From Candidatus Absconditabacterales bacterium (GTDB lineage Bacteria > Patescibacteriota > Gracilibacteria > Absconditabacterales > Absconditicoccaceae), in assembly GCA_937923605.1 (NCBI GenBank), contig CALDTY010000011.1, positions 1-64,000 of the forward strand: a stretch of DNA of 64,000 bases, in the 5' to 3' direction. Each line of letters begins with the position of its first letter. Position 1 is the first letter of the stretch. Positions 45,053-61,052 of this stretch are shown here, in pieces. The position numbers and the translations under genes are program-made. The notes beneath the pieces are model-generated. The model ran no database searches, was not told the origin of the DNA, and worked only from the letters and a program-made list of their open reading frames with translations.

Positions 45053-46066
45053 ATGAGCCAAACGAAACTTATTTTCACTTGAGAGTCTACTTATCAAGTC
45101 CATGAAGCTATAAGCTATCGGAAGGATAATTTTATGCAAAAGTATTGAAATGAATGAGTTCATGTCTTTCGTCAAGGAGATATAAATATGTCTGAGTTGC
45201 AGTCATGTGTTTTTGGAGGCTGATTTTTTTCACAAAAATCTTTGGTTATTATCTATTGAGTTCCAAAAGATAATAATACTGAGAATAAACTCACTGCTTC
45301 AGAAAGTGAACCACTTGAGAAAATTCTTGAAGACAACTGGGACAAAATACCTGAAGAAACAATCTTAATCCTTGTGAGCTATAAGCCTGACAAGAGAACT
45401 AGGTCCTGGAAGTTTTTTTCTACCTCAACAACCATAAAAGAGTTTCCTAAGAAAAAGGGGAAAGATCTAACCTTGTTTGTTTTAGATAAGTCAACTTTAC
45501 TTAAATGAGAGAATATAATACACTTGATTGACTCAAAGCAAGCAGAAAAAATCGTATCTATTGTTGGAAATAATTTATTTAATCTACATTATGAATGTGA
45601 TAAAATAGTTCACTATTGTATATTCCATAATCTTCAAAAGATATCTAATGAAACAATTGAATGACTATTGTATCGTCAGGATCACGATAGTTTTAAAGTT
45701 ATTGATACAATCTTTAGCAATCCAGATGCTGCTTTAGAATATATAGGCCAAGCTCAGCAAAACAATCAAAACGAATATGAGTTTCTAGGAATGTTGTATC
45801 GATGATGTAAATTGATATTAAATTTACTTGAACTTGAAAAGCAATGAGTTTCTTCCTCTAAAGAGATGGCAAAAATACTAAGTCTACATCCATTTGCTGT
45901 ATCTAAACATAAAAGTAAATTATGAGAATATAGAAAAATTGAAGACAAAGTAAGTTCATTATTCTTATGACTCCTGCAATTAGAGTATAATCTTAAAACC
46001 TGACAATATCCAGCAGAGTGATTTTGGGTAAAAGTCAAAAGTCTAATATATGGAATTTCACAATAA
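45053..46066 (+). CDS. holA: DNA polymerase III delta subunit-like
   Basis: MSQTKLIFTGESTYQVHEAISYRKDNFMQKYG...LQSCVFGGGFFSQKSLVIIYGVPKDN...; delta-type domain layout. Confidence 0.7.
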
Positions 46067-46127: not shown

Positions 46128-46667
46128 CTAACTATTCCTTCGTTTTCTTCTTTGTAATTCATCTCTTATACAAGTCGCTTTCTCATAATCTTCTTCATCC
46201 AATGACCCTTGTAAAATATAGGTCAGATGCTTCTCATCATAAGAAGATAAATCAAAATTTTCATTATCAAAAATAGACCTATCTGCAACTAAGATTATGC
46301 TAAATAGATAACCATAGATTAATGCAAATCTGACATCAACCTTGGTGATACATTTATCAATTCCTTTGATCTTAACTTTAGTATAAAATGAATTAGTTTC
46401 GACATCCTTTTGTAATTCAAAATATTCTATCTCTGCATCAAAAGCCTTTAGAATATCTGAGATCAACGAATATGGCTCAAAGAACAATTTTTCAAATGAT
46501 TCTGACTCAAAAAGATCATAATCATTAAAACAAGCATATAACATTTGAAGTTCATCCTTATCTAAGGCTACTTCAATACCTACATCAGATGTGCCTTCAA
46601 AAAGAAAACATTCATTAGGGACTTCTTCTTTGGTAGCAATAAGGCAATTAAGAATTACTTTTTTCAT
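46128..46667 (-). CDS. Bifunctional-nuclease (DUF151)-like protein with C-terminal UVR motif; TGA-free ORF
   Basis: ORF open in standard code; DVRFALIYGYLFSIILVADRSIF resembles BFN; UVR-type tail LQGSLDEEDYEKATCIRDELQRRKRR. 5 Gly, all GGN. Confidence 0.6.
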   Translation of the reverse strand: MKKVILNCLIATKEEVPNECFLFEGTSDVGIEVALDKDELQMLYACFNDYDLFESESFEKLFFEPYSLISDILKAFDAEIEYFELQKDVETNSFYTKVKIKGIDKCITKVDVRFALIYGYLFSIILVADRSIFDNENFDLSSYDEKHLTYILQGSLDEEDYEKATCIRDELQRRKRRNS

Positions 46668-46672
46668 AAGTA

Positions 46673-47209
46673 TTATTTCTTTGATTTAGATGTAATTAGA
46701 TCTCTAATAGTAGCTGCCTTTTCAAATTCATCATTATCAAGAGCCTTTTTAAGTAATTTTTTAAGATTCGATAACGACATTTTATTAATATCTTTAAGAT
46801 CAACTACTTCACTAGTAAGTTTAGATATTACTTCTTCATAGGCAGGAATAAGTCTATCATTCATAAAATTTGTATATGGTCCTGTCCAATACCCTTTTTC
46901 TTCTTCACTTTCAAGATCTTCAAAATTTTCCTGATAAGCTTCCCATTCACTTATATTCTTTTCAATCATACTTACTGACCTAAAATTTTCTGCATACTGA
47001 CTAATAGCTTTGTCACTAATATTTTGCATAGCGATTTCAGCCATTTCAAATTCACAGGCTTGTTCAAGTTTTTCTAAAAAATCATATGTTACCAGATATG
47101 AAATTTGTAAAGTACTCTTTAATTTTCTTTTTAGTGAGATCAAATAGAACTTCTCTAAATTTAATATTTGATCGTTGAGAAACATAGTTTGCATAGTACC
47201 AATGAACAT
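46673..47209 (-). CDS. UVR-motif-containing protein; TGA-free ORF (start uncertain)
   Basis: LKKLLKKALDNDEFEKAATIRDLITSKSKK tail parallels the downstream BFN-like gene; overlaps the upstream ORF by 128 bp, so the true start may be about 47.09 kb. Confidence 0.55.
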   Translation of the reverse strand: MFIGTMQTMFLNDQILNLEKFYLISLKRKLKSTLQISYLVTYDFLEKLEQACEFEMAEIAMQNISDKAISQYAENFRSVSMIEKNISEWEAYQENFEDLESEEEKGYWTGPYTNFMNDRLIPAYEEVISKLTSEVVDLKDINKMSLSNLKKLLKKALDNDEFEKAATIRDLITSKSKK

Positions 47210-47672
47210 TATTGGACATTAATTGGTTTTTTAATAAATCAATGATATCACTACAATAGTGTTCAATTTTATCAATTTGATTTTTCTTGACTGATTCATT
47301 AAATTTTTCAATCAAATCCATATATATTATAATATGCTTATAATGTACTAGGTAACAGATTGGTTTGTCAGAAAATTCAAAAGGTCCAGCATATTGTTTA
47401 TTACTTGGAGTGAAATATGAATGATGATATTTTGGTTGCTCATTTAAACCAAGTGCATCATATATATAATGATACCCATCTTCATTTATTCTAAGTTCAA
47501 TATTATAATCACCAATTTTTCTATCATAGTATGGTTCAGCTTTATTTATATAATATTTACCACAGTGAACATGTACAGAATGTCGGCGAATATATACTGT
47601 TGTACCAGGAACAATGTGACCAATTAATGGTAGTATTAAAACAGGATCAGATTTTTGTGTATCTTTCGTCAT
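47082..47672 (-). CDS. Hypothetical protein, 196 aa; TGA-free, terminating at TGA
   Basis: MTKDTQKSDPVLILPLIGHIVPGTTVYIRRHSVHVHCGKYY...TNFISGNI then TGA (plus strand tca 47082-47084); 8 Gly all GGN. Confidence 0.65.
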   Translation of the reverse strand: MTKDTQKSDPVLILPLIGHIVPGTTVYIRRHSVHVHCGKYYINKAEPYYDRKIGDYNIELRINEDGYHYIYDALGLNEQPKYHHSYFTPSNKQYAGPFEFSDKPICYLVHYKHIIIYMDLIEKFNESVKKNQIDKIEHYCSDIIDLLKNQLMSNNVHWYYANYVSQRSNIKFREVLFDLTKKKIKEYFTNFISGNI

Positions 47673-47689
47673 AGTTTATTTTTAGTATA

Positions 47690-48145
47690 TTATTTAATAG
47701 ATGCTTTGTGCATCATAACTTCTTTAGCAGATTTATAAAACATATCTGACACAAAAATTACATCAACTAATTGATTGACATAAGCCAATATAAGAACATC
47801 CTCTAAATGAATTTTATCAATTATTTTATTGTGACCAAAAACATAAGCATCACCAAAAACTTTCGTAAAAGAAACCGTAGGATCGTTCTTAAAATGACTG
47901 TACTCCGTAACAGATATAAAGTTTTTTAACAGTATATGATGTAATTTTTTATTCCATTTGGACCAAATACTGTTCAGTTGAAAAGCACCATCGCTCAGAT
48001 CTGTTTGGTTTGACAAAAGTAGTTCAGTAAGTTTATGAGTTGAATGAACTGGTAATTCAAACTCTACATTGTTTGGTAACATAAGATTAAAATAATATCC
48101 TCCTTGCTCACTTTCATAGAAAGTAAGATTATTCACTTGTATCAT
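47690..48145 (-). CDS. Hypothetical protein, 151 aa; TGA-free
   Basis: Open in standard code, TAA stop; 5 Gly all GGN. Confidence 0.65.
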   Translation of the reverse strand: MIQVNNLTFYESEQGGYYFNLMLPNNVEFELPVHSTHKLTELLLSNQTDLSDGAFQLNSIWSKWNKKLHHILLKNFISVTEYSHFKNDPTVSFTKVFGDAYVFGHNKIIDKIHLEDVLILAYVNQLVDVIFVSDMFYKSAKEVMMHKASIK

Positions 48146-48155
48146 AGAAATTGGT

Positions 48156-48623
48156 TTATTTTGCTTTAATGAAAACTTTTACATGCTTATGAATCATTCG
48201 GTACAATAAAACAAGATTAATGAGATCTGCCCCATTACTATGCTTCCATGTTTTCGACTTATTAACAGAAGCATTATCCGTTAAACTATACTGAATATAG
48301 TGAGCATCATTATGTTTTAAAACAATTTGTTCAAAAACAATATTCTCTTTTTTCTCAAAAAACTGTTTGAATAATGCTTTAGCTTTTGAGTTTGGTAAAT
48401 ACATTATACCCTTTCTATAACATTCATATTCTTGTTTCTGACCATTTGAAAATGGAATTTCGAGTTGATATTCAGAATTTTTGCATAAAAATCTTAACGC
48501 CATATCTGACATAAGATTGTTGTACGCAGAGCTATGCTCTTTTATTATTGATTTTTGTTTACTCATATCGTTAGTATTTTTTATAATTAACTGATTTTTT
48601 TTGATTTGAAAGATCTTACACAC
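48156..48623 (-). CDS. Hypothetical protein, 155 aa; TGA-free (start may be internal at MSKQKS)
   Basis: Open in standard code, TAA stop; 3 Gly all GGN. Confidence 0.6.
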   Translation of the reverse strand: MCKIFQIKKNQLIIKNTNDMSKQKSIIKEHSSAYNNLMSDMALRFLCKNSEYQLEIPFSNGQKQEYECYRKGIMYLPNSKAKALFKQFFEKKENIVFEQIVLKHNDAHYIQYSLTDNASVNKSKTWKHSNGADLINLVLLYRMIHKHVKVFIKAK

Positions 48624-48661: not shown

Positions 48662-48940
48662 TTAATATATTTTTATGCTTCTTAATCTATATGAATATCA
48701 AAATTCATCTAATTTTATGTTAAGTTCCTTACGTAAATCTTCTCTTTGCATAAACCACATAGTTTTATCTTCATTGCTCGGTAAGCGAAAAGTTAACACT
48801 TCTCACCTAATAAAACCCTTAATTTCTTCCTTTGAGATTGATTTAGCATTAATATGGTGCATCAAAAAAGATCAAATACTAAGTTTTGAAAGATTTTTTT
48901 GTGCTAGGCGATTCTTGAGAACCTTTTTTATTTCTTTCAT
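48662..48940 (-). CDS. DUF721/DciA-like protein, 92 aa
   Basis: MKEIKKVLKNRLAQKNLSKLSI...EIKGFIRGEVLTFRLPSNEDKTMWFMQREDLRKELNIKLDEFGYSYRLRSIKIY*; two TGA=Gly. Confidence 0.55.
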
Positions 48941-50031
48941 AACGGCTTCGGTGAATAATTACTGTCTAAACCCTTAACTCGATATAGATATATATTTATA
49001 CCATAAAATATAAACGCCATGGCAAAGAAGACTATCAACTTTCAAATTCTATCATTTCATAATAGTAACATGACAGTCATAAAAAACAATGACCATCACC
49101 AAATAAATATTCTGACTTCTCCTCTATTTCGTCATAAAGAAAGCAATCTATAGTGTAAATGTGAATAATCTCATTTTAAAGGGTTCTTGTTCTTTTTCCA
49201 TCTATCAATAATAACCCATATAGCATCAAATAATGGTAAAGCTAAAACAACAATCATTGTTCAAATTTTAGCTCAACCTAATAATGACAAATATCATAAT
49301 GAAAATCAGAAAAACATAGTTCATACATCTCTCATTAATCACCATGGTTTGTATTCCATAATTGTTCAAAACACTCAAACTACAAAAAGAATAAGAGCAA
49401 CTATTTTTACACGAAGCAATAACTCATTGCGTTCAAAAGTCATAAATTCAAATGTAGGAAACACAACTAATACTAATAAGAGAAATATTGTTAGAAATCA
49501 TATTGTACTCATTCATGTTGCTAATCCATAGATTCAATCAAACCAATTTATAGCATTTATAAATAATACAAACCAAGCAATGGTAGCTATTAACGAAGTG
49601 AATCAACTTAGTTGAATAGCTTGAAATCATGGTATACTGAGATAATCAAGTCAAACTCAAGAAAATCGTCGAGCACCTGCTGCAACTAAGATCTGAACCA
49701 AAAACCTTATTCATGCTGAAAGTGAATACTTCTTATCTACTAAGTATCAAAGCTCATCTATAATTGAAACTAATGCTATAATTCATCCTCACACAAACAG
49801 TCATAAGAACTCTTTTCAAACATAATCTAGATCCAAATAATATTTTGTAATAAGAAGCAATACTAAGAAAGTAATAATTATTGTTACTCATTGTAGAGTG
49901 GGTACTGGATCTCTATCAGGAACATCTTTTCCAGGCTTATCTAAAATATTGAAGAATCTAAAAAATGATATTCATCACCACAGACAAATTGAACAAACTA
50001 TAATATATGTCAGAATTAGAAACAAATCCAT
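48928..50031 (-). CDS. Undecaprenyl-phosphate sugar-phosphate transferase (MraY/WecA/TagO family)
   Basis: DKPGKDVPDRDPVPTLQG...SIIDELGYLVDKKYSLSAGIRFLVQILVA...NAINWFDGIYGLATGMS...KNKNPLKGDYSHLHYRLLSLG. Confidence 0.9.
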
Positions 50032-50128
50032 TATTTTGTATACTAAGGTTCTCAAAAATTTGTTCAAGTTGAGCTTTACAAAAAAGCAAACAAAACTAAA
50101 ATAGAGATTCTATAAACTAATTAAACAT

Positions 50129-52708: not shown

Positions 52709-53059
52709 TTAGTTACATGTAATCTCATCAAATTTTTCTTTCTGTGTTTCAGAAAGAAAGAATGTGTTTAATGTAATGTCAGCATCAATTTTGATTTGTA
52801 TAAAATGATTAACTAATGATATTGTGGCATTTCCAAGTTTTTGAGTAGTATTTTTTAGATAGATTCGTCTACGTTTAATAGGCTCAAATCTAAACCAATC
52901 ATACACTTTTGGTGATCGATTAAAATTCTTCTGAAATTCCTGAATAAAGTGCATAACCAACTGAAATGATTTACCATGATCAATATAGGTTACGGCAAAT
53001 TTTTTAAAATCATTCAGAAAGATTTTATCAGTATTTTCAGAAATGATGTGCTCATGCAT
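52709..53059 (-). CDS. Hypothetical protein, 116 aa; TGA-free
   Basis: Open in standard code, TAA stop; only 2 Gly, both GGN. Confidence 0.55.
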   Translation of the reverse strand: MHEHIISENTDKIFLNDFKKFAVTYIDHGKSFQLVMHFIQEFQKNFNRSPKVYDWFRFEPIKRRRIYLKNTTQKLGNATISLVNHFIQIKIDADITLNTFFLSETQKEKFDEITCN

Positions 53060-53069
53060 TCTTAGTTTT

Positions 53070-53813
53070 TTAGTTCTCTAATAAATAGTAAAAATCTCTC
53101 TTTTGCTTCGATCTTTTATCATGTTTATCTTGATTAAATTTATCATAAATCTCATTACTAATAGTGATATAGTTTAACGTGTAGTACTCAATAATATCAT
53201 CCTTAGCAATTAATACTGGAAATGAAGAATATACATCAGAAGAATATTCATATTCGAGATCAATTGTCTCATTTGGATACATATCTTGAAGCATTATTGT
53301 CCTATTTCTATCGGTTAAACCTATTAATTCACAATATTTTGATACATCATTAAGTAATAAAGAAAAACTTTTTCTACAATTGAAATGCAATGCCTCATAG
53401 TACGTACTAAAAGCAATCTGAGTAGTTAAATTAATAAGAATACAACAAACTACAAGAGCGCAAAACACTAAGTATCCAATTACTTTCAAAGGATTATCTT
53501 CAGTTTTATCACAATTATATATTAAACAAGCAATAAATAATAATGCAAAAATCACAATATACAGAAATACATGATGAACAATAATCTGTCTTCTTAGTTC
53601 CTCAAGACTATTTGTTGTTTGTTTTTCAGAACTATAAATTCTGATTGGTTTAAATGAATACTTCTTTTGATGATTATGCTTTCTATATGCAACAACAATA
53701 ACAAAACTTATTACTGCAATGAAAAATAACCATAAAACAGGTACATAATGGAATATCGTCATATCTATTTTTTTTGATTGAATTATATCTTCTTTGACTA
53801 TTAAATATCTCAT
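53070..53813 (-). CDS. Hypothetical membrane protein, 247 aa; TGA-free
   Basis: Open in standard code; TM segments VPVLWLFFIAVISFVIVVAY, VFLYIVIFALLFIACLIY, IGYLVFCALVVCCILINL; upstream TTGACA promoter-like sequence. Confidence 0.65.
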   Translation of the reverse strand: MRYLIVKEDIIQSKKIDMTIFHYVPVLWLFFIAVISFVIVVAYRKHNHQKKYSFKPIRIYSSEKQTTNSLEELRRQIIVHHVFLYIVIFALLFIACLIYNCDKTEDNPLKVIGYLVFCALVVCCILINLTTQIAFSTYYEALHFNCRKSFSLLLNDVSKYCELIGLTDRNRTIMLQDMYPNETIDLEYEYSSDVYSSFPVLIAKDDIIEYYTLNYITISNEIYDKFNQDKHDKRSKQKRDFYYLLEN

Positions 53814-57461: not shown

Positions 57462-58571
57462 ATGGAACGAAAAATAGCATTAACCAGCGCATGGTTACTT
57501 ATATATGTAATAGTTACATGTATAATGATGAAACATAAAACTTATCTCTTTCTGAATTATGAAGTGATACATTGGTGGGAGTTGTTTACTACCATATATA
57601 TATTTGCTACATTTAGTTATGTAGTAAATCTTTGGAAACAAATATCTATTCTTATCACTCATACATTTTATGTGATAATGATTGCTCAATTATACTTTCT
57701 TGTGAAATATTGCTTTGTTCAAAGTATACAAAGTACGACATTTATGCAATCTCCTGTGTTCAAAATTGGATGTTTCATTGCATTGTTGATATACTTGTAC
57801 TTTGTGAAAAATCTTCTAGAGAAAGGAATAAAACAGATACCCTTATATAAGTTATTGCTTAAAAGAGTAGAAAAATCTGATACAACAAGAGACGATCAAG
57901 TTTTGAACACAATGGAAAAGTTGATTGATTTTATATTATCAATCATGTTATTTGTACTAGCAATAGTATTCACCTTTGGAGCTAAATCATCTATTGCATT
58001 ATATAGCACTGGTTTAGGTAGTATATTTGTTGTAATGATATCGTACTCATCAAGACATATTTTTAAGAATGGTATTTCTGGAGTAGTTATTTTTGCAAAA
58101 GATATTCTTAGAATTGGTGGTTCTATCACTTACAATGGCTCTAAGGGAGAAATAAAAGAAGTTGAACTTGGTCATATCATTCTTCAAAAAGATAGTGGTA
58201 CGACAATTAGAATACCAAGTGCTGGAATATTGGAAAATGGCTTTTCTAATCATATGAAAATAGATAGGAATGGATTCAATTTTCAAATTCCAATTGAAAA
58301 AAACCGATCTAAGATTGATCAGGCCCTCAAATCTATTGAATCACTACTTACAAAAAAATCAAAAGATTGGAATATCTTAGATAATACTGTTGAAGTAGTT
58401 GTGACAAAAATAGGTTTAAATTCAGTGACTATTGAAGCATCTTTCGATACTAGTGTTATGGAATTTGATAGACAGGTAGATAGTTCAAAGGAGAAAATTT
58501 CAAAGGACTTGGAACAAGAAAAGAAGATTCATAAAGAATTTATAATTAAAATAATAGAATTAAATTTGTAA
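57462..58571 (+). CDS. MscS-like mechanosensitive channel family protein, 369 aa; TGA-free
   Basis: Multi-TM N-term then MISYSSRHIFKNGISGVVIFAKDILRIGGSITYNGSKGEIKEVELGHIILQKDSGTTIRIPSAGILENGFSN; 17 Gly, none TGA. Confidence 0.8.
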   Translation: MERKIALTSAWLLIYVIVTCIMMKHKTYLFLNYEVIHWWELFTTIYIFATFSYVVNLWKQISILITHTFYVIMIAQLYFLVKYCFVQSIQSTTFMQSPVFKIGCFIALLIYLYFVKNLLEKGIKQIPLYKLLLKRVEKSDTTRDDQVLNTMEKLIDFILSIMLFVLAIVFTFGAKSSIALYSTGLGSIFVVMISYSSRHIFKNGISGVVIFAKDILRIGGSITYNGSKGEIKEVELGHIILQKDSGTTIRIPSAGILENGFSNHMKIDRNGFNFQIPIEKNRSKIDQALKSIESLLTKKSKDWNILDNTVEVVVTKIGLNSVTIEASFDTSVMEFDRQVDSSKEKISKDLEQEKKIHKEFIIKIIELNL

Positions 58572-58593
58572 ACAATAAAATAAACAAAAAAAA

Positions 58594-58980
58594 ATGATAA
58601 CTAAAATAGTAATACTACTTGCCCAACAAGCATTTTTAGATGGTATATTGACCTTTATAAAAAGAAAATATGTCACTAAAGCACTGAAAGCTAATGCAAC
58701 CTTAAAGTTTGAAGCGACTAAGGAAACTGCGATGAAAGCTATAGAAGATATTTATACTGAATCAGCTGGGAATATTGAAAAATTTCAGTCTGAACTACAA
58801 AAATTCTATCTCAAACATATGAAAGAAATCTATGGAGAAGCTAACAGTACAGAGTTAAAAGATGTGTTCAGTATTACATTTGAAAGCTATAAGGAATTGT
58901 GGTCTGATATACATGAAAATCTAGAGACATACGTAGAAAAAATATCTACATTTTTCGATTTCACAAAACGAATAAAGTAA
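58594..58980 (+). CDS. Hypothetical protein, 128 aa; TGA-free
   Basis: MITKIVILLAQQAFLDGILTFIKRKYVTKALKANATLKFEATKETAMKAIEDIYTES...; between MscS-like and DUF389 genes. Confidence 0.6.
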   Translation: MITKIVILLAQQAFLDGILTFIKRKYVTKALKANATLKFEATKETAMKAIEDIYTESAGNIEKFQSELQKFYLKHMKEIYGEANSTELKDVFSITFESYKELWSDIHENLETYVEKISTFFDFTKRIK

Positions 58981-58981
58981 A

Positions 58982-60385
58982 TTGATATGGAGAAAAAGAG
59001 TACTCATCAAGAAAAAGCTGAACCAGAAGATTTCCTACATACTATCAAAGTGGAATAAAGCCTTTGAAATATTCTTAGATGATCCTAGGGATTGGTTACA
59101 AGAATGGATAGAATTACGGAGAGAAGATAATGCTAAAAAAAAGATCATTAGTAATATTGTTCATAATGGTACAAAATTCCGTGGTGAACGATTTATAATG
59201 GTACTTGTTGCAGCATTATTTGCAGCTGGTGGATTGTATAAAGACAACTGGGCTTATACTATAGGTAGCATGCTAGCTAGTCCTATGATGTATGCTATTA
59301 TCGGCATTGCATACGCATTGTATGCATTTGACGATGATACGTTCTGGGGTTCTTTTAAGTCATTTATGATACAGTTTGCTATTGGTTTAGGTCTCTCATT
59401 TTGCTTCTTTAGCATTATGTCATTAAACATACCTACTGATGCGCTTTGGGCTAGAACCTACCCTGATGCAATTGATTTGAGTATAGCATTTGCTGGTGGG
59501 TTACTAGGAATATTAGCAAGTATGCATGCAGATAAGATTTCATTAGCAACCGTGGTAGCTGCAGTAGCAATTGGGACATCATTGATGCCACCAATTTGTA
59601 CTATAGGATATGGTTTAGCGACGGGACAACATATTTTTATCTGGGATGCATTTTGGCTATTTGTGATAAATACTGTCATGATTATGCTCGCTAGTATTCT
59701 TATGATATATATTACAGAATTACCAAAGAAACAAGGTATTAGTAAAAATAAACAATTTGTTTATGGTTTAATTGTTTGTGTTGGGATTGTGATCGCAATA
59801 ATAAACTCATTACAAGTTGCTAACTACGAATCAAATAAAGGAGAAATACATACTCTAGTACAAACTGTCTTAAAAGACAAAGGTAGAATGACTAGTTTAG
59901 ATATTAACCATCATCAACAATTTGTAGATGGATTCATGGTAACTAATCCCCTTGTAACTGATACATTATGGAGAGCTTTGGAACAAGAAATAAGTTTAAT
60001 TGTTCCAGATTATGATGTCAAAATTACACAAGTTGCACAGCATCATAAAGATGATAGGATTTCAAGTTTTGCAAAACAACAGAATGAGGAACTTTCTTCA
60101 TTACGGTCACAATTGAAACTTTCTCTGAAAGAAAGGTCTGATATGAAACGGCAAAATGAATATAGAGACTCAATATATACAATAATTCCATCGATGCTTC
60201 GTAGAAGCATACAAAACATTGAAGGAGTAAATGTTGTTAGTTTACAACCTGAAGGAGTTGATTCAATATCTTATGCTGCATTAGTAAAATATGCACCAAA
60301 AAATTGGAAATCAAAAGTACGGATTGAGAACGATTTGGATAGCTTATCACTTAGGTTTCCTAAACTAAGCATTTCGAAATTTTAA
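58982..60385 (+). CDS. DUF389-family membrane protein; TGA-free (5' end uncertain)
   Basis: NGTKFRGERFIMVLVAALFAAGGLYKDNWAYTIGSMLASPMMYAIIGIAYAL...AFAGGLLGILASMHADKISLATVVAAVAIGTSLMPPICTIGYGLATGQ; 24 Gly, none TGA; ORF would need a TTG start. Confidence 0.78.
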   Translation: MIWRKRVLIKKKLNQKISYILSKWNKAFEIFLDDPRDWLQEWIELRREDNAKKKIISNIVHNGTKFRGERFIMVLVAALFAAGGLYKDNWAYTIGSMLASPMMYAIIGIAYALYAFDDDTFWGSFKSFMIQFAIGLGLSFCFFSIMSLNIPTDALWARTYPDAIDLSIAFAGGLLGILASMHADKISLATVVAAVAIGTSLMPPICTIGYGLATGQHIFIWDAFWLFVINTVMIMLASILMIYITELPKKQGISKNKQFVYGLIVCVGIVIAIINSLQVANYESNKGEIHTLVQTVLKDKGRMTSLDINHHQQFVDGFMVTNPLVTDTLWRALEQEISLIVPDYDVKITQVAQHHKDDRISSFAKQQNEELSSLRSQLKLSLKERSDMKRQNEYRDSIYTIIPSMLRRSIQNIEGVNVVSLQPEGVDSISYAALVKYAPKNWKSKVRIENDLDSLSLRFPKLSISKF

Positions 60386-60454: not shown

Positions 60455-61052
60455 TTATAACCAAGGAGAGAACATTCCTACTCTTTCCATATAACCTTCA
60501 TAAGCATCATGAAGTTCTTTCATTTGCATTTCTTCAAGTTTGCAAGTTATATACCAAAGTGGGATAAATAATCCCAATATGATAAACCAAGTCGAAGAAA
60601 AGTAAATTAAACCCAGTCCTCCTAGTAGCAAATACATGCTCACATACATAGGAAACATAGGTAGGGCCTTCCAATTGCGTTACATAGTCATGACTATCAG
60701 TAGTAAAGTTATCAGTCCCAAGCTTTGGAAAAAATATATCTACATTATCCATAGTGTATTCTGCACTATCGTTCCTAAAAGGAGGTATAGTAAAATTATT
60801 ATTGAAAGAATTCACCTTTGCAGTCAATAGATTCCATATTCTACCAAATCGTTTCTTACTGTAATGCATCTTATATCCAATCACTGGATACAGCACAATA
60901 AGAAGAAATGAACCTATCGATGCTATGTGTAGTTGTATATGCTCAGTCATCTTAAACATACTTATCACTAAGAATATGATAGCTGAAGATCTTATTAACA
61001 TCATTTTTAGATGTAAATCTTTAATCTCATTAAATTCGTTAACTTGGTTCAT
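60455..61052 (-). pseudogene. ICMT/PEMT-type membrane methyltransferase-like gene split across two frames
   Basis: 5' frame ORF 60534-61052 and 3' frame ORF 60455-60658 overlap out of frame; the 3' frame supplies FPMYVSMYLLLGGLGLIYFSSTWFIILGLFIPLWYITCKLEEMQMKELHDAYEGYMERVGMFSPWL. Confidence 0.55.

Follow-up and report, generated by a model that had tools for sequence, protein, structure and literature searches.

A TGA-ended gene in a TGA-free and probably transferred gene cluster of a code 25 Absconditabacterales genome

INTRODUCTION

Gracilibacteria and Absconditabacteria use genetic code 25, in which UGA encodes glycine and prfB is missing (PMC6851277, PMC8629427), and CGA/CGG have been reported as tryptophan codons in Absconditabacteria (PMC8629427). 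Phages and prophages compatible with code 11 have been described from code 25 hosts; they carry no in-frame TGA, may end genes in TGA and have further stops downstream (PMC10746230). Horizontal transfer into CPR bacteria is also on record, and a study of activated sludge counts 84 events with fragments of 518–5,730 bp (PMC10031880). The code, the phages and the transfers are thus each familiar from earlier work.

Here we describe a locus in a 64,000-nucleotide stretch of an Absconditabacterales genome (the window) that touches on all three. The native genes, a tRNA-Gly(UCA) and the presence of RF1 with no RF2 found match the described code 25, whereas the genes of one cluster in the same genome depart from it (PMC6851277, PMC8629427). 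The departure resembles that of the code-11-compatible phages in the lack of in-frame TGA, the TGA ends, the downstream stops and the code 25 host; unlike those phages, it concerns chromosomal islands of cellular genes (metabolic, membrane and unknown), and the cluster is free of phage genes (PMC10746230). Short foreign bacterial fragments recall the activated-sludge transfers, and the 2.5 kb cluster falls within their size range, but that study, in its accessible part, detected near-identical fragments and does not treat code mismatch, whereas the donors here are distant and the mark is the lack of TGA (PMC10031880). A further likeness is to the DUF151–UVR proteins of Bacteroidota: two cluster proteins, encoded at 46128 and 46673, have a UVR tail, and the former aligns weakly with the second half of DUF151; in contrast to those proteins, it is missed by the Pfam DUF151 model, and the protein of the central gene shows no similarity to them.

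RESULTS

The genome reads TGA as glycine

The assembly is a 1.31 Mb draft of 34 contigs, 83.5% complete with 2.64% contamination, in which two short contigs consist of N and contig 11 provides the window. The TGA share of codons is about 4% nearly throughout the genome, and a test for code 25 found it in frame inside native genes, where it accounts for 66.9% of glycine codons. One such TGA falls in a ribokinase-like gene, within its GAGDS motif, and the tRNA together with the literature identifies the residue as glycine. The tRNA with anticodon UCA (C32:15943-16016), although labelled SeC by ARAGORN, carries G1:C72, C2:G71, G3:C70 and U73, the criteria for tRNA-Gly(UCA) (PMC8629427). The RF1 gene is present in the assembly, and the check for an RF2 gene proposed by an earlier, sequence-only reading of this DNA returned none, the RF2 model matching the RF1 gene alone and below cut-off. 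At 83.5% completeness a missing RF2 is not proof of absence; the result agrees with the published absence of this factor (PMC6851277). The genome is truly a code 25 genome. The reassignment of CGA/CGG to tryptophan seems inapplicable here, native genes using CGA about as often as CGT. Within one family, the fraction of glycines encoded by TGA varies widely, from about 70% in G009 to 28% in the single-contig genome G029 (sequences L129 and L137-L156), a contrast that should help in tracing the spread of the code change.

Five ORFs lacking TGA lie between native genes

Five minus-strand ORFs occupy 46128-48623 of the window: 48156-48623 (up to 155 aa), 47690-48145 (151 aa), the focal ORF at 47082-47672 (196 aa), 46673-47209 and 46128-46667 (179 aa). 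None of the 23 glycines of the cluster is encoded by TGA, against 66.9% in native genes (P = 9e-12), which supports the earlier view that the focal gene looks built for a standard-code cell. Scored with the codon statistics of TGA-free genes, all five ORFs are coding under the standard code (0.26–0.52 bits per codon; typical 0.35, off-frame −1.03). Non-glycine synonymous codon use barely separates island from native genes; a classifier built on it (AUC 0.69), in which the focal gene appeared native-like (0.29), is too weak to lean on. The neighbours, named by ourselves, are native: a DNA polymerase III delta-like gene (holA) with 13 TGA at 45053-46066 (+) on one side, and on the other a DciA/DUF721-like gene with 3 TGA at 48662-48940 (−) and an MraY/WecA-like transferase gene with 30 TGA at 48928-50067 (−).

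Few of the cluster products resemble known families. The similarity of the 48156-48623 protein to Imm59 is weak and below cut-off. The ORF following the focal one, 46673-47209, has no internal TGA and encodes a C-terminal UVR motif, and the 46128-46667 product, with a UVR tail, may be a diverged DUF151-like protein (hhalign, 95%). The HMMER score of the latter came almost wholly from the tail (27.3 versus 4.6 bits), and the Pfam DUF151 model did not match it. Pfam and PHROGs gave no phage match for the five proteins, the cluster holds no phage, integrase or transposase-like protein, and PADLOC returned no usable match.

The focal ORF ends in TGA at an apparent change of coding frame

The focal ORF has no in-frame TGA and ends, as the sequence-only reading had noticed, in ...TNFISGNI, its last codons under the standard code being ATA-TGA (TGA at 47084-47082). 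Under table 25 it gains 22 residues, GFFRKTGTSLGIGNGGNRYAKY, up to a TAG at 47018-47016; the extension (47016-47084, −) has five of its six glycines encoded by TGA and overlaps ORF 46673-47209 out of frame. All of this had been described correctly, and the span given for it, 47040-47210, covered the right site while falling short of the extension end at 47016. In favour of the TGA as the true end, the coding score of the focal frame holds up to the TGA and drops beyond it, and the 22-codon tail scores like off-frame sequence, although 9% of true native C-termini score equally low. A single further code 11 ORF of the window, 60534-61052, ends in TGA, and this apparent stop at 60534 is a by-product of a frameshift: 60455-61052 (−) is a gene with a weak PEMT methyltransferase-like C-terminal part, split near 60655.

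The frame of the next ORF scores as coding from the focal TGA on. The 13 codons between this TGA and the first ATG of the next ORF are coding-like, a score reached by 0.6% of open off-frame windows, and there is no ordinary start codon where the coding signal begins. The signal changes frame at the TGA or within about 18 codons upstream, and the best switch point is the TGA itself. What fits best is an original start of the next gene within an ATGA overlap, whose ATG at 47086-47084 shares the focal TGA, and a one-base slip, through mutation or assembly error, in the T6 run that follows at 47081-47076 (overlap and run together 47076-47086, −); a one-base change in this run would bring the overlapping ATG into the frame of the next ORF. 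A start further upstream with a long overlap, at the TTG at 47143 or the ATG at 47185, remains as an alternative. The third reading, the only one of the three that makes the focal TGA irrelevant, is that the focal ORF and 46673-47209 are one foreign gene, broken near the junction by a mutation or assembly error, so that the TGA would lie outside the true product. The earlier reading had named such a frameshifted pair as the case against it, and the case is partly alive: the frame switch at or shortly before the TGA, the coding-like codons with no start and the frameshift in another gene of the window (60455-61052) all agree with it. On the other hand, the best switch point lies at the TGA rather than upstream of it, real TGA ends occur in the congener G002 (below) and in other TGA-free genes, and the ATGA overlap with a slipped T6 accounts for the same data. 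We regard a single broken gene as unlikely, though to be taken seriously.

Two further loci speak to TGA as a true end. An ATGA overlap joins the TGA-free pair at C23:26655-27505, and a TGATG (at C9:35808) closes the ORF at C9:35806-36309; both architectures require TGA as a stop and therefore count in its favour. An apparent ATGA pair at C3:149645-150019 was dropped since its second ORF is antisense to a native gene and lies over a terminator-like stretch. We also considered that the focal UGA might be a programmed +1 frameshift site, as in prfB, joining both ORFs. The second frame is indeed +1, and skipping one base in AUA UGA U would give Ile-Asp followed by the coding-like frame. However, no Shine-Dalgarno-like stretch stands ahead of the UGA (TTTCATATCTGGTAACATATGA is without one), the junction has no conserved homolog, and slow decoding of UGA is not to be expected where a tRNA reads it as glycine; we give this mechanism hardly any credence.

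The same junction in relatives

G012, which belongs to the same family, has an empty site: there 146 bases separate the holA-like gene from the DciA-like one, and compared with this genome the cluster is inserted DNA. G002, of the same genus, has two different TGA-free minus-strand ORFs in the same gap (L126:4225-5137, −). The first ends in a TGA 16 bases ahead of an ATG of the second, and the second ends in a TGA located in the loop of a hairpin that is followed by T8 and resembles a terminator. If TGA were read as glycine, the first ORF would continue out of frame into its neighbour, which in turn would cross the hairpin into the antisense of holA. As TGA accounts for 42% of glycines in G002 and the two ORFs hold five glycines in total, the lack of TGA in them is by itself weak evidence; their spacing, ordinary for an operon, carries more weight. 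By eye the two ORFs had seemed to resemble DUF151, which comparison did not support; the match of the second to the focal protein, equalled in 1 of 600 shuffles and one of 21 pairs compared, is suggestive only.

Within the genus, the holA-like/DciA-like junction appears to have been used more than once. This could mean that it is a standing slot for standard-code genes, TGA stops included, which serve a standard-code partner (conceivably through products that are passed into a prey or host cell) or are repeatedly exchanged with it, an idea we hold to be highly improbable. The apparent reuse would also suit a cluster that is cargo of a code-11-compatible phage or mobile element moving between code 11 and code 25 hosts, and Gracilibacteria phages that avoid TGA within genes are described (PMC10746230). 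Set against this are the metabolic genes in other islands (next section) and the cluster itself, in which phage, integrase and transposase-like proteins are missing; such an origin appears rather unlikely.

TGA-free islands and their probable donors

The earlier reading treated the focal gene as a single oddity. Its standard-code character stands, and the gene proves to lie in a foreign island of a kind that is numerous in this genome; the islands lack TGA within genes, and TGA-ended genes occur in several of them. The per-gene TGA share of glycine is bimodal: most genes lie at 0.5–0.9, and 61 genes with at least 10 glycines have no TGA at all. In several single-TGA genes the TGA precedes the likely true start or sits at the end. 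TGA-free ORFs of at least 150 aa cover 7.1% of the genome, an upper bound because some of them arise by chance; we drew no rate from the list of TGA-ended code 11 ORFs since it includes many antisense or chance ORFs. One run, C4:58036-66727 (L060, L061), comprises 2,770 codons with 178 GGN and no TGA. From our own reading of the sequence, we take it to encode PurK, PurC, PurE, PyrE/F, PyrD and PyrC. G022, from the same family, has a TGA-free PyrC relative that is 54% identical and adjoined by a PyrD-like ORF.

Within contigs, dozens of islands are interspersed with code 25 genes, which speaks against the explanation that the TGA-free DNA is Bacteroidota contamination or misassembly in the bin. 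A draft of 34 contigs with 2.64% contamination invites that suspicion, and contamination is known to confuse code inference in public data (PMC8629427). Nevertheless, the cluster fits neatly between complete native genes, different TGA-free ORFs occupy this junction in the congener, and G029, assembled as a single contig, also has TGA-free genes with Bacteroidota-like signal sequences, though TGA is rarer there. Contamination or misassembly of this kind is very unlikely.

For the island with a PurA-like gene (C3:15867-17048), the donor appears firmly Bacteroidota-like from sequence comparison: the gene shares 52% identity with its counterpart in a Saprospiraceae MAG, and a vWA-like gene adjoins it both here and in the MAG. 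The UVR tails of the 46128 and 46673 proteins match those of DUF151–UVR proteins of Chitinophagales, the order of this MAG, and by analogy a Bacteroidota-like donor is the most likely one for the focal cluster too. The focal protein itself is an orphan. We found no convincing homolog in viral contigs, plasmids, phages, genome contigs, relatives or 298 genomes from the family to which the Saprospiraceae MAG belongs. A joined query that included it found nothing convincing in 288 genomes from the class of the present bacterium or in 399 from the order that contains the Saprospiraceae. A weak match in G021 (22% identity, E 7e-4, 4 TGA) and, in the order search, one in G775 that touched the focal part (26%, internal stop) were disregarded, and an AlphaFold model of the protein alone (pLDDT 38) was not used.

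Other TGA-free stretches lie in the window. The two-gene island at 52709-53813 (−) is also an insertion, its flanks being about 70 bases apart in G003, of the same genus. The island at 57462-60385 (+) has genes for an MscS-type channel and for a DUF389 protein; ranked by E-value, the best plasmid matches of the DUF389 protein are from Bacteroidota. An array of TGA-free membrane-anchored proteins at the contig end, 61039-63953 (−), appears by eye to consist of paralogs with shared YQ.AC, GG..I and P.FFW-like motifs. By our reading, G003 and G029 have TGA-free genes with Bacteroidota-like signal sequences, and the lack of TGA is less telling in these two genomes, where the codon is rarer.

DISCUSSION

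We consider it probable that the cluster was recently transferred from a standard-code, Bacteroidota-like donor and that the focal TGA is the donor's stop. An operon-like group of five genes would have come from a bacterium with the standard code, the Bacteroidota being the most likely phylum, possibly by DNA uptake, for which the native ComEC gene offers a route. It would have been inserted between two native genes of a code 25 gracilibacterial (Patescibacteria) genome, with the TGA stop carried over unaltered. Because tRNA-Gly(UCA) reads UGA and no RF2 is known here, a tailed protein is expected if the cluster is transcribed: the transcript should yield the 196 residues plus a 22-residue tail that ends at UAG. 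We infer this readthrough from the decoding machinery, and the mis-extension foreseen by the sequence-only reading is, on code 25 and the RF2 search, the expected outcome in this cell. The predicted tryptic peptide of the tail is TGTSLGIGNGGNR. A start coupled to the TGA, as in the proposed ATGA overlap, could no longer function through termination and restart.

In a partial search of the literature we found no description of chromosomal islands with unrecoded cellular genes that retain donor stops and start–stop overlaps. TGA-free islands flag foreign genes without the need for a tree, and the TGA share among glycines could act as a clock of how long an island has resided in the genome. The TGA-ended genes and the non-functional ATGA overlaps point to products that are expected to bear misread tails. 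A recoded genome that takes in standard-code DNA is a natural test of a code change as a barrier to gene transfer.
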